Part shown: piece by piece, positions 23,566 through 32,125 of the stretch | Position numbering within the stretch: position 1 is the first letter of the stretch | Layout: the number at the start of each line of letters is the position of its first letter | DNA from: Jiangella anatolica | GTDB taxonomy: Bacteria; Actinomycetota; Actinomycetes; Jiangellales; Jiangellaceae | Reading direction: 5' to 3' | Assembly: GCF_003236295.1 (NCBI RefSeq) | Contig: NZ_POTW01000079.1 | Location: forward strand, 1 to 32,125 | Length of the DNA: 32,125 nucleotides | Notes under the pieces: generated by a model | Told to the model about the DNA's origin: nothing | Database searches by the model: none | What the model saw: only the letters and a program-made list of their open reading frames with translations | Made by a program: the position numbers and the translations under genes

Positions 23566-27978
<4,413 letters not shown>

Positions 27979-27982
<4 letters not shown>

Positions 27983-29277
27983 GCGATTCCCCCAGTCTGG
28001 TGCGTCATGCGGCCGCGCAGGAACGTCGCGACGACGGTTCCCGGCAGCTTCATCCCCTCGTACGGAGTGTTCCGCGACAGCGACGCCGATGCCGACGGGT
28101 CGACCGTGGTGGTGGTGGTCGGGTCGACGAGGGTGAGGTTGGCCGGCTCGCCGACGGCGATGGGCCGGCCGTGCGGCTGGTCGCCGCCGTCGCAGCGGCC
28201 GATGCGGGCCGGCGCGTAGGACATCCGGTCGGCGACGCCGGCCCAGTCGAGCAGACCGGTGTCGACCATGGCGTGCTGGACGACCGACAGCGCCGTCTCC
28301 AGCCCGAGCATGCCGAACGCGGCGGCGTCCCACTCGCAGTCCTTCGCCTCGACCGGGTGCGGCGCGTGGTCGGTCGCGACGATGTCGATGGTGCCGTCGG
28401 CCAGCGCCTCGCGCAGCGCGGCGACGTCGGCGGCGGAGCGCAGCGGCGGGTTGACCTTGTAGCGCGGGTCGTAGCCGGCCACCAGCTCGTCGGTGAGCAG
28501 CAGGTGATGCGGCGTGACCTCGGCCGTCACCGGCAGGCCGCGCTCCTTCGCCAGCCGGACGATCTCGACCGAGCCCCGCGTCGACAGGTGGCAGATGTGC
28601 ACCCGCGAGCCGACGTGTGCGGCCAGCATGACGTCGCGGGCGACGATCGCCTCCTCGGCGACGCTCGGCCAGCCGCGCAGGCCCAGCCGGCCGGAGAGCT
28701 CCCCCTCGTTCATCTGCGCGCCCTCGGTCAGCCGCGGCTCCTGCGCGTGCTGGGCGATGACGCCGTCGAACGCCTTCACGTACTCCAGCGCCCGGCGCAT
28801 CAGCTGGGCGTCGTGGACGCAGACGCCGTCGTCGGAGAAGACCCGGACGCCGGCGGCGGACTCGGCCATGGCGCCCAGCTCGGCCAGCCGTTCGCCCTTC
28901 AGGCCGATCGTGACGGCGCCGACCGGGCGGACGTCGGCGTGCCCGGCCTCGCGGCCCAGCCGCCAGACCTGCTCGACGACGCCGGCGGTGTCGGCGACCG
29001 GGTCGGTGTTGGCCATGGCGTGGACGGCGGTGAACCCGCCTCTCGCCGCCGCTCTGGTGCCGGACTCGACGGTCTCGGCGTCCTCGCGGCCGGGCTCGCG
29101 CAGGTGCGTGTGCAGGTCGACGAGACCCGGGAGGGCGATCAGCCCGGTGGCGTCGATGACGTCCGCGTCCTCCCGCGCTGCTCCGGTGCCGAGGGCGACG
29201 ATGACGCCGTCGTCGATGAGGACGTCCTGCGGGTCGCCGCCGAGGACGCGGGCGTTCTGGATCAGGGTCGCGGTCAC
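27979..29277 (-). CDS. pyrC: Dihydroorotase, class I
   Basis: A 432-residue metallo-enzyme cyclising carbamoyl aspartate to dihydroorotate. The metal-binding start is [12 protein letters not shown] with His56 and His58. Further ligands are expected in AQHAQEP, HICHLST and TPHHLLL, and Asp in IVATDHAPH. The class I (longer) form matches those beside pyrB in Gram-positive bacteria. GTG at 29277 overlaps the pyrB stop (GTGA). The 3' end overlaps carA. Length is normal. Confidence 0.95.
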
Positions 29278-30212
29278 GCCGCCTCCTCGCTGTTCGTGCC
29301 GGCGAGCATCAGGTAAAGCACCGCCATGCGGACGTAGACGCCGTTCGTCACCTGCTCGACGATGACGGAGCGGGCGCTGTCGGCGACCTCGGCGGTGATC
29401 TCCATGCCGCGGTTCATCGGCCCGGGGTGCAGGACCAGCGCCTCGGGCGGCATCAGTCTCTGGCGCCTCGTGTCCAGGCCGTAGCGGCGGCTGTACTCGC
29501 GGGCGGACGGGAAGAAGGCGGCGTTCATGCGCTCGCTCTGGACCCGCAGCATCATGACCGCGTCGGCACCGGCCAGGGCGCCGTCGAGGTCGTAGCTGGT
29601 GGCGCAGGGCCAGGCGTCGACGCCGTTCGGGAGCAGCGTCGGCGGCGCGACCAGCGTGACGTCCGCCCCGAGGGTCGCCAGCAGCAGGACGTTGCTGCGC
29701 GCGACCCGGCTGTGCAGCACGTCGCCGACGATGACGATGCGCTTGCCGGCCAGCTCCCCCAGGTGCCGCCGCATCGTGAACGCGTCGAGCAGCGCCTGCG
29801 TCGGGTGCTCGTGGGTGCCGTCGCCGGCGTTGACCACGCACGCGTTGATCCAGCCCGACGTCGCCAGCCGGTACGGCGCCCCGCTGGCGGAGTGCCGCAC
29901 GACGACACCGTCGGCGCCCATCGCCTCCAGCGTCAGCGCGGTGTCCTTCAGGCTCTCGCCCTTGGACAGGCTGGACCCCTTGGCGGAGAAGTTGACGACG
30001 TCGGCGGAGAGGCGCTTCGCGGCCAGCTCGAAGGACGTGCGGGTGCGGGTGGAGTCCTCGAAGAAGAGGTTCACCACGGTGCGGCCGCGCAGTGTCGGCA
30101 GCTTCTTCACCGCGCGGCCCTCGGTCAGCCGGGCCATCTCGTCGGCGGTGTCGAGCACCAGCGTCGCGTCGTCCAGGGACAGGTCGCCGGCGGAGAGGAG
30201 GTGGCGGATCAT
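29274..30212 (-). CDS. pyrB: Aspartate carbamoyltransferase catalytic subunit
   Basis: A 312-residue enzyme joining carbamoyl phosphate and aspartate, the committed pyrimidine step. The carbamoyl-phosphate loop [13 protein letters not shown] (50-62), the [12 protein letters not shown] loop, [20 protein letters not shown] and HPGPMNRG are all present. No regulatory pyrI is in the window, as expected in actinobacteria, where PyrR does the control. ATG at 30212 overlaps the pyrR stop (ATGA), so the gene is probably translated by coupling from pyrR. Confidence 0.96.
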
Positions 30213-30802
30213 GGCGTGGCCTCCTGCTGCTCGTCCGGGGCCTGCGTGTCGTGGGCGGGCTTGTCGAGCAGGACGCCGTCGTGCCCGTCGGTCTCGGCGA
30301 GGCGCACCTTCACGCTCTCGACCAGCGAGGTCGGGATGTTCTTGCCGACGTGGTCGGCGCGGATGGGCAGCTGGCGGTGTCCCCGGTCGACGAGGACGAC
30401 CAGCCGGACGGCGCGCGGCCGCCCGATGTCCTCCAGCGCCGTCAGCGCCGCCCGGATCGTCCGCCCCGAGAACAGGACGTCGTCGACCAGCACCACCGTC
30501 CGGTCGTCGACCCCGCCCGGCGGGATGTCGGTGGGCTCGAGGGCGCGGGCCGGCCGCAGGCGCAGATCGTCGCGGTACATGGTGACGTCGAGCGCCCCGA
30601 CGGGGACGTCGATGCCCTCGGCCGCCGAGATGCGCTCGGCCAGCCGATGCGCCAGCGGCACGCCGCGTTTCGGGATGCCGAGCAGGACGAGGTCGGCGGC
30701 GCCTCTGTTGCGCTCCACCACCTCGTGCGCGATACGCGTCAGCGCCCGGGCCACATCGTCGCCGTCGAGCACTTCGCGCGCGCCGGATAGGTCGCGAGAC
30801 AT
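30209..30802 (-). CDS. pyrR: PyrR: pyr mRNA-binding attenuation protein / uracil phosphoribosyltransferase
   Basis: A 197-residue bifunctional protein. The PRPP-binding loop [13 protein letters not shown] (103-115) and [20 protein letters not shown] are typical. [20 protein letters not shown] carries the basic RNA-binding face. It senses UMP/UTP and binds a hairpin in the pyr leader. In mycobacteria this blocks translation initiation and does not terminate transcription, and the leader here fits that: there is a PyrR hairpin next to the ribosome-binding site and no terminator. The C-terminal tail (about 180-197, [14 protein letters not shown]) is longer and more acidic than usual. ATG at 30802 is 11 bases after the GGAGG. 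It is the first gene of the pyr operon. Confidence 0.95.
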
Positions 30803-30811
30803 GCTTCGCAG

Positions 30812-30839
30812 GACCTCCTTCCCCGCCTCACGGGACGGG
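30812..30839 (-). promoter_or_regulatory. PyrR-binding hairpin and pyrR ribosome-binding site
   Basis: On the minus strand, 30839 to 30822 reads CCCGUC-CCGUGA-GGCGGG: a 6-bp stem (one G-U pair) with a hexaloop that fits the known PyrR loop consensus CNGNGA. It is within UCCNGNGAGG. AAGGAGG (30820 to 30814) follows one base after the stem. PyrR bound here would cover the ribosome-binding site. No terminator or antiterminator is visible, so translational repression is inferred. Confidence 0.8.
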
Positions 30840-30841
30840 AC

Positions 30842-30859
30842 TTAAAGGACGTCGGTCAT
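30842..30859 (-). CDS. Five-codon leader mini-ORF (MTDVL) before the PyrR hairpin
   Basis: On the minus strand ATG ACC GAC GTC CTT TAA runs from 30859 to 30842 and stops two bases before the PyrR hairpin. A -10-like hexamer lies five bases before the ATG, so the mini-ORF would be leaderless. A ribosome ending at this TAA would overlap the hairpin and could hinder PyrR binding. This is seen in the sequence, but its translation is an inference and it could be chance. Confidence 0.35.
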   Translation of the reverse strand: MTDVL

Positions 30860-30864
30860 CTGCG

Positions 30865-30872
30865 AGACTATC
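30865..30872 (-). promoter_or_regulatory. Candidate -10 of the pyr operon promoter
   Basis: GATAGTCT on the minus strand (30872 to 30865) contains two overlapping -10 candidates, GATAGT and TAGTCT. Either gives a transcription start at or a few bases before the mini-ORF ATG at 30859. I see no good -35. Confidence 0.4.
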
Positions 30873-30914
30873 AGCGGCCCCGGCCCGACCCGCCGCGACC
30901 CGCTGTCGGCCCCG

Positions 30915-31313
30915 TCACACCCGACTCGGTGCGACGACGCGCAGCCCGGCGGCCCGCGCAGCCTCCGCCTGACGGTGGTCGTAGGCCACCAGCTCGTCGG
31001 CCTCCACCCGGATCGCGACGGCGACGTGCAGGGCGTCCAGGCTGCGCAGAGTCGCTCCCGGCAGCAACCCCGCCTCGACGTAGGTCGCCCGGTCCGGCTC
31101 GTAGAGGTCGAATCGGTCCAGCAGGTCGGTGACGCGGTCCTGCCCGATCCCGGTGCGGGTGGCCAGCCGGCGCAGCTCGGTCTCCAGCAGTAGGCTCGAC
31201 ACGAGTGGCCGGCCCGCGCGCTGCCGGTCGTCCAGGTAGTCCGCGAGCGCCGCCGACTCCGCCTCCTCGATCAGCAGCTTCGCCGCCGCCGACGTCTCGA
31301 CGTAGACGCTCAC
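30915..31313 (-). CDS. vapC: VapC-type PIN-domain ribonuclease toxin
   Basis: A 132-residue PIN-domain protein. The acidic metal-binding residues are Glu6 (YVETSAAAKLL, where Asp is the commonest residue), Glu44 or Glu46 (LLLETELRRL), Asp93 (LRSLDALHVA) and Asp112 (LVAYDHRQAEAA). VapC toxins cleave tRNA or rRNA when not bound by antitoxin. GTG at 31313 overlaps the antitoxin stop (GTGA), the usual antitoxin-first arrangement. The pair sits between the pyr operon and a damaged gene with an IS element, so it belongs to an accessory patch. Toxin activity is inferred from the family. Confidence 0.9.
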   Translation of the reverse strand: MSVYVETSAAAKLLIEEAESAALADYLDDRQRAGRPLVSSLLLETELRRLATRTGIGQDRVTDLLDRFDLYEPDRATYVEAGLLPGATLRSLDALHVAVAIRVEADELVAYDHRQAEAARAAGLRVVAPSRV

Positions 31314-31558
31314 CGATCGCCGCGCAGATCGTCGAGGAGATCCTGCACCGGACCGTCCAACCGGACGCGGTCGAGCTCGGCCAGCCCGCCGCGCACCCGG
31401 GCCGGGCGCACGCGCAGACCCGGCCGGCTGCCCGGCGGCACCAGGATCGCCACGATCTCGCCGTGGTTGCTGATGGCGATGCTCTCCCCCGCCTGCACCT
31501 CGCGGAGGACGGCGCTGCTGTTGTTGCGCAGCTCTCGATGCGGGATGGTCCGGGCCAT
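31310..31558 (-). CDS. vapB: VapB-type antitoxin, Phd/YefM family
   Basis: An 82-residue protein. The N-terminal DNA-binding fold ARTIPHRELRNNSSAVLREV, then AGESIAISNHGEIVAILVPP, is the Phd/YefM pattern. The C-terminal part (RPARVRGGLAELDRVRLDGP) would wrap around the toxin. ATG at 31558 is chosen because GAGGAGGTGGGAG precedes it. A longer in-frame reading has no support. It should repress its own promoter with VapC, and a repeat-containing sequence 20-40 bases upstream is a fair operator candidate. Confidence 0.9.
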   Translation of the reverse strand: MARTIPHRELRNNSSAVLREVQAGESIAISNHGEIVAILVPPGSRPGLRVRPARVRGGLAELDRVRLDGPVQDLLDDLRGDR

Positions 31559-31913: not shown

Positions 31914-31960
31914 CTGTACCCGGCCAGGACGTTGGTAGCGGCGAGCCTGGTTGAACGAAC

Positions 31961-32016
31961 GAGAACCTCCGAATGGGATGTGGCTTGTCGAAGGCCCACT
32001 CCACCCGGAGGTTCTC
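31961..32016 (+). promoter_or_regulatory. Inverted repeat covering the transposase ribosome-binding site
   Basis: GAGAACCTCCG (31961-31971) and CGGAGGTTCTC (32006-32016) are perfect complements 34 bases apart. The second arm contains the GGAGG used by the transposase GTG at 32017. A shorter GTGG and CCAC pairing lies within the loop. If transcribed from outside, the ribosome-binding site would be locked. Confidence 0.55.
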
Positions 32017-32125
32017 GTGTCCCACGGTAGTGCCCGGCTGACCGTGCATGGTCGCCGCCTGATCGTTCAACGCCACCGGGCCGGCTGGCCCCAGGCCCAC
32101 ATCGCCGCTGCGATGGGAGTCTCCC
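32017..32125 (+). CDS. IS481-family transposase, N-terminal part
   Basis: The first 36 residues read SHGSARLTVHGRRLIVQRH, then AGWPQAHIAAAMGVS. This is the helix-turn-helix start of IS481 transposases (usually MSHANAPLTPEGR...), which continue with a second HTH and a DDE catalytic core beyond the window. GTG at 32017 has GGAGG six bases upstream. Whether the enzyme is intact cannot be told. Confidence 0.85.
   Translation, partial: MSHGSARLTVHGRRLIVQRHRAGWPQAHIAAAMGVS

Follow-up and report, generated by a model that had tools for sequence, protein, structure and literature searches.

The leader of pyrR in Jiangella anatolica raises the question of whether a five-codon open reading frame that ends against a PyrR-type hairpin brings translation into pyrimidine control, or is an incidental product of the letters from which the hairpin is built. 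The window, i.e., the whole stretch of DNA analysed, comprises 32,125 nucleotides, and the features discussed here are collected in Table 1. The letters of the frame, ATG-ACC-GAC-GTC-CTT-TAA, are present as the first-pass annotation described them, five bases past a -10-like hexamer. The interpretation of these letters depends on the promoter, the hairpin and the start codon, which are considered in turn.

Table 1. Coordinates of the pyr leader and of the adjoining genes within the window.
Feature	Position	Strand	Basis or remark
Five-codon frame ATG ACC GAC GTC CTT TAA	30842..30859	-	judged a chance frame over the 5' arm of the hairpin
Extended -10 element TGATAGTCT (TGNTANNNT)	30865..30873	-	sequence
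Variable spacer between -10 and hairpin, including the ATG (30859-30857)	30854..30864	-	length and letters differ across 12 same-genus genomes
PyrR-type hairpin	30812..30853 (about)	-	fold, sub-gathering RF00515 match, 78-sequence alignment and pair counts
pyrR Shine-Dalgarno AAGGAGG	30814..30820	-	sequence and fold; within the 3' arm of the lower stem
pyrR, first pyrimidine operon gene	30209..30802	-	NF003547 284 bits (cut-off 230), NF003549 230 bits (cut-off 138)
pyrB, aspartate carbamoyltransferase; overlaps the pyrR stop	29274..30212	-	NF002032 405.9 bits
Dihydroorotase-like frame, next after pyrB	27979-29277		open frame
Carbamoyl-phosphate synthase small-chain frame, downstream of the dihydroorotase-like frame	within 26849-28333		open frame

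The genes for PyrR, aspartate carbamoyltransferase, a dihydroorotase-like protein and the small chain of carbamoyl-phosphate synthase would together form an ordinary pyrimidine operon of predicted extent. Immediately upstream of the pyr promoter, at 30915-31558 (-), lies a toxin-antitoxin-like pair consisting of a PIN-domain protein (PF01850) and a Phd-family antitoxin (TIGR01552). Further away, at about 31960-32125 (+), an inverted repeat recognised by eye (CGAGAACCTCCG ... CGGAGGTTCTCG) precedes a frame cut by the window end. This truncated frame gives a weak, below-cut-off match to HTH_23, and it is reminiscent of how an IS481-type transposase begins.

For the promoter, the hexamer TAGTCT at 30870-30865 (-) is directly preceded by TGA, giving an extended -10 element of the form TGNTANNNT, and the five-base spacer CGCAG separates it from the ATG. 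The same form ends 10-24 nt upstream of CTTTAA in 162 of 215 distinct leaders, compared with 4 of 215 when a control interval, 60-74 nt upstream, is searched, an enrichment which makes it very likely that the -10 element is real. A simple scan of the leader found no two-hexamer sigma-70 promoter, in agreement with an extended -10 promoter. From the position of this element, the 5' end of the transcript is expected close to the hairpin; transcription starting at A30859 is plausible, as the spacing fits.

The MFE fold of the leader shows a hairpin longer than the one first reported. Beneath the upper stem (CCCGUC/GGCGGG, closed by the loop CCGUGA) and the bulge AAGU, GAC pairs with GUC and UCCUUU with GAAGGA to form a lower stem. 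The first-pass annotation placed the stop codon two bases before the hairpin; this is correct for the upper stem-loop, CCCGUC-CCGUGA-GGCGGG at 30839-30822 (-), which follows the TAA after GT, but not for the whole hairpin, whose lower stem contains GAC-GTC-CTT-TAA in both the fold and the RF00515 alignment. The upper stem-loop is followed by GAAGGAGGTC and then by the pyrR ATG at 30802. The Rfam PyrR family, RF00515, matches 30852-30797 (-) and again gives the lower stem as UCCUU(U)/(G)AAGGA, with the same two-stem architecture and GUCC-N-G-N-GAGG core. The score, 30.7 bits, lies below the curated gathering score of 54, with 66 of the 115 model positions skipped and 11 bases in their place, and no Rfam family reaches its gathering score anywhere in the window. 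The leader also departs from the family in detail: the RF00515 consensus at the position of the mini-ORF stop is CCUUUUAA where J. anatolica has CCUUUAA, and a core A-U pair of the model is C-G in the leader. The element is therefore named PyrR-type on the basis of its motif, structure, conservation and gene context, and not by the Rfam threshold. As to the motif, the features of a PyrR binding site, a two-stem hairpin with the core UCC-N-G-N-GAGG above a lower stem UCCUU/AAGGA, are all found here. The fold energy of 30859-30797 is unremarkable (z -0.94; 33 of 200 shuffles fold at least as well).

Comparison among relatives was more informative than energy. In an alignment of 78 of the 243 leader rows, picked by script for diversity, the 15 hairpin pairs are formed in 89.8% of cells, a figure that drops to 54-62% once the partners are slid; seven of the 15 pairs change on both sides. 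The covariation score is reached by none of 500 shuffles, a result that kinship among the sequences alone can give without any structure; it amounts to 0.095 compared with 0.088 in a control slid by -1, and the 30 doubly changed cells compare with 27 and 28 at slides of +1 and +3. Since the slid controls come so near on both measures, the percentage of pairing carries more weight. Constancy falls off in the outer pairs: the three GAC/GUC pairs are open in 27, 28 and 20 of the 78 leaders, and the upper stem is unpaired at its base in 26.

The hairpin pattern is found in all 12 genomes of the genus, in 21 of 22 of the family and in 256 of 296 of the class (each set including the one before), whereas the pattern read backwards matches 2 of the 296 by a hand count; conservation on this scale is far beyond what chance would be predicted to give. 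At 110 pyrR loci picked by protein homology, CTTTAA together with the PyrR core occurs in 100, TTTTAA in four and neither in six. Outside these loci most leaders were chosen by the loop pattern, so that the invariance of CTTTAA in the 78-leader alignment is partly a matter of construction. Identical leaders were merged, since many loci are duplicates of genomes fetched repeatedly. Among same-family leaders, the 120 bases compared are identical in L017, L161 and L031 (Phytoactinopolyspora halophila), as they are in L018, L155 and L049 (Jiangellaceae bacterium). The strict loop is absent from 10 of 253 loci (L023, L024, L027, L029, L038, L039, L041, L073, L103 and L108). The TTTTAA variant, with an extra T (CCCTTTTAA) and an altered 3' arm (AAAGGTGGTGA or AAAGGCGGTGA), is carried by leaders of Herbidospora (L038, L041), by one Microtetraspora record (L039) and by L027. 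Separately, several genomes of genera g43 (e.g., G081, G148, G157, G166) and g102 (G238, G294) contain two loop matches each, suggesting a second PyrR-controlled unit.

Against this background, little of the five-codon frame is independent of the RNA element. Its GAC-GTC-CTT-TAA portion makes up the bulge and the 5' side of the lower stem, whose partner is the GAAGGA-G-GUC that carries the pyrR Shine-Dalgarno sequence. As CTTTAA belongs to the PyrR site, both in the protein-selected loci and in the Rfam consensus, a stop codon is expected at this position with or without any ORF. With the stop and the last codons thus accounted for, the start codon is the sole independent claim of the mini-ORF.

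The first-pass annotation had proposed that the frame supplies a translation-dependent input, and had named loss of the start codon in relatives that keep the hairpin as an outcome that would speak against it. In such a functional leaderless uORF, transcription would start at A30859, a 70S ribosome would load on the 5' AUG, and its footprint on the lower stem would compete with PyrR. The ATG five bases past a good extended -10 gives this idea a plausible start position, and two relatives in the genus also carry in-frame start codons: L005 an ATG, with a spacer one base shorter than that of the window, and L007 a GTG. An in-frame ATG is, however, absent from 10 of the 12 same-genus leaders, own genome included, although all 12 keep the hairpin; nine have neither in-frame ATG nor in-frame GTG. 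Seven of these show no ATG or GTG at all between the -10 and the hairpin, and the other two, L008 and L009, have GTG out of frame. In a tree built on 1500 bases counted onward from near the pyrR start, L004, in which CTG replaces the ATG, is the sister of L005 at a starred fork, while L007 clusters with L008 and L009. Within the genus, hardly any letters differ between CCGAC and the pyrR start, and it is the spacer that changes in length and letters.

From the wider sample of 218 distinct leaders, one containing an N was dropped and 12 of the remaining 217, without TANNNT, were excluded, leaving 205 for the start-codon counts. An in-frame ATG 3-11 nt past the -10 is found in two of these, the window and L005, and an in-frame GTG in five; these frame-0 counts omit frames with an earlier stop, which removed L059 (otherwise 8/205 in all), whereas frames 1 and 2 were left unfiltered. 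Among 116 non-redundant leaders with a -10, ATG or GTG in this interval falls in frames 0, 1 and 2 in 7, 4 and 2 cases, respectively, with no clear excess of frame 0 (one-sided binomial of about 0.10, worked by hand). Nor does the distance from the -10 to the hairpin keep a triplet phase, the gap modulo 3 being 0, 1 and 2 in 30, 42 and 44 of 116 representatives (hand tally). With redundancy kept and the -10 at any position, ATG within 21 nt of CTTTAA occurs in 5, 22 and 4 of 215 leaders by frame, and GTG, counted in frame 0 alone, in 19 of 215.

An apparent excess of ATG in frame 1 (21 of 205, vs 2 and 3 in frames 0 and 2) was discarded, as it drops to 1 of 116 once redundancy is removed. It stems from leaders with GGATGG just behind the -10, many of them Streptomyces rows. 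In Streptomyces leaders such as L048, L067 and L070, a recurrent GGATGGCGCAA comes right after the -10. Two bases separate its ATG from the hexamer, probably too short a distance for this codon to be transcribed, and the ATG does not share the reading frame of the loop stop.

Mycobacteria have many leaderless RTG starts, small uORFs among them (Shell et al. 2015, PMC4633059), and the J. anatolica arrangement resembles them in having an RTG a few bases past a -10 and a short ORF before an annotated gene. In the examples of that study that we draw on, M. tuberculosis and M. smegmatis share the leaderless initiation, whereas the start seen in J. anatolica is not preserved across species of one genus; the main text of PMC4633059 makes no mention of pyrR. 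Given these mycobacterial examples, an idea of this type is reasonable, but the comparison among relatives that the first-pass annotation proposed speaks against it. Among the papers listed by literature searches, none has a title or abstract opening that reports a mini-ORF for the leader of pyrR, which is a statement about those papers and not a claim of absence from print. On the frame, position and sister-species comparisons a conserved mini-ORF was rejected, and a functional leaderless uORF is considered very unlikely; the proposed translation-dependent input is left unsupported.

A narrower form of the proposal would confine the effect to this strain, or perhaps to the species of G011. 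Here, transcripts starting at A30859 would load ribosomes on the AUG that occupy the lower stem, so that a recently arisen, lineage-restricted input would overlie a conserved PyrR switch. Leaders with an ATG or GTG in frame close to the -10 make up a higher share of the genus (3/12) than of the wide sample (7/205), so that a lineage-restricted role keeps a small probability; a strain-level effect, should transcription start exactly at 30859, is conceivable but unsupported. If true, pyr expression would also sense the capacity for leaderless initiation. We give this version very little credence. A transcription attenuator of the Bacillus type, in which PyrR would act on an antiterminator/terminator switch in place of translational repression, shares the same binding-site family, but is hardly credible and was rejected, since the terminator scan of 30780-31000 found no terminator-like site, the hairpin is just nine bases from the pyrR start and the Shine-Dalgarno sequence lies within the stem.

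The reading with by far the greatest weight, which we hold with high confidence, is a standard actinobacterial PyrR translational-repression leader with a chance start codon; judged on sequence, the element is most likely of an already known kind. PyrR-dependent translational repression is reportedly the mode of control of the Mycobacterium smegmatis pyr operon, where a PyrR loop in the proximal leader, without a terminator, is said to overlap the first ribosome-binding site, with pyrR heading the operon. The J. anatolica leader has the same layout: a proximal loop over the first ribosome-binding site, an absence of terminator-like sites in the interval scanned, and pyrR first. It differs in belonging to another organism, in which it is known here from sequence, and in the ATG, a feature that this strain shares with one relative. 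The translational-repression layout suggested by the first-pass annotation stands as far as sequence goes, with a conserved element and the ribosome-binding site in its stem, and PyrR binding and repression in J. anatolica would follow the mycobacterial precedent.

According to this preferred reading of a PyrR repression leader, the extended -10 promoter would start a short 5' leader in which the PyrR-binding hairpin begins almost at once. PyrR acts with UMP/UTP. When pyrimidine nucleotides are plentiful, PyrR would sit on the loop and stabilise the hairpin, blocking ribosome access at pyrR and lowering expression of pyrR and of the downstream pyrB-pyrC-carA; when they are scarce, the pyrR ribosome-binding site would open. 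The PyrR site would supply GAC-NTC-CTT-TAA, and a chance ATG in the unconstrained spacer would complete an incidental five-codon frame.

The leader illustrates cleanly how PyrR would act by hiding a ribosome-binding site. Comparison among relatives reveals how broadly this layout is conserved within the class of the window. A short ORF lying over a conserved RNA element needs to be tested on its start codon alone, because the stop and most of the codons come free from the RNA motif.
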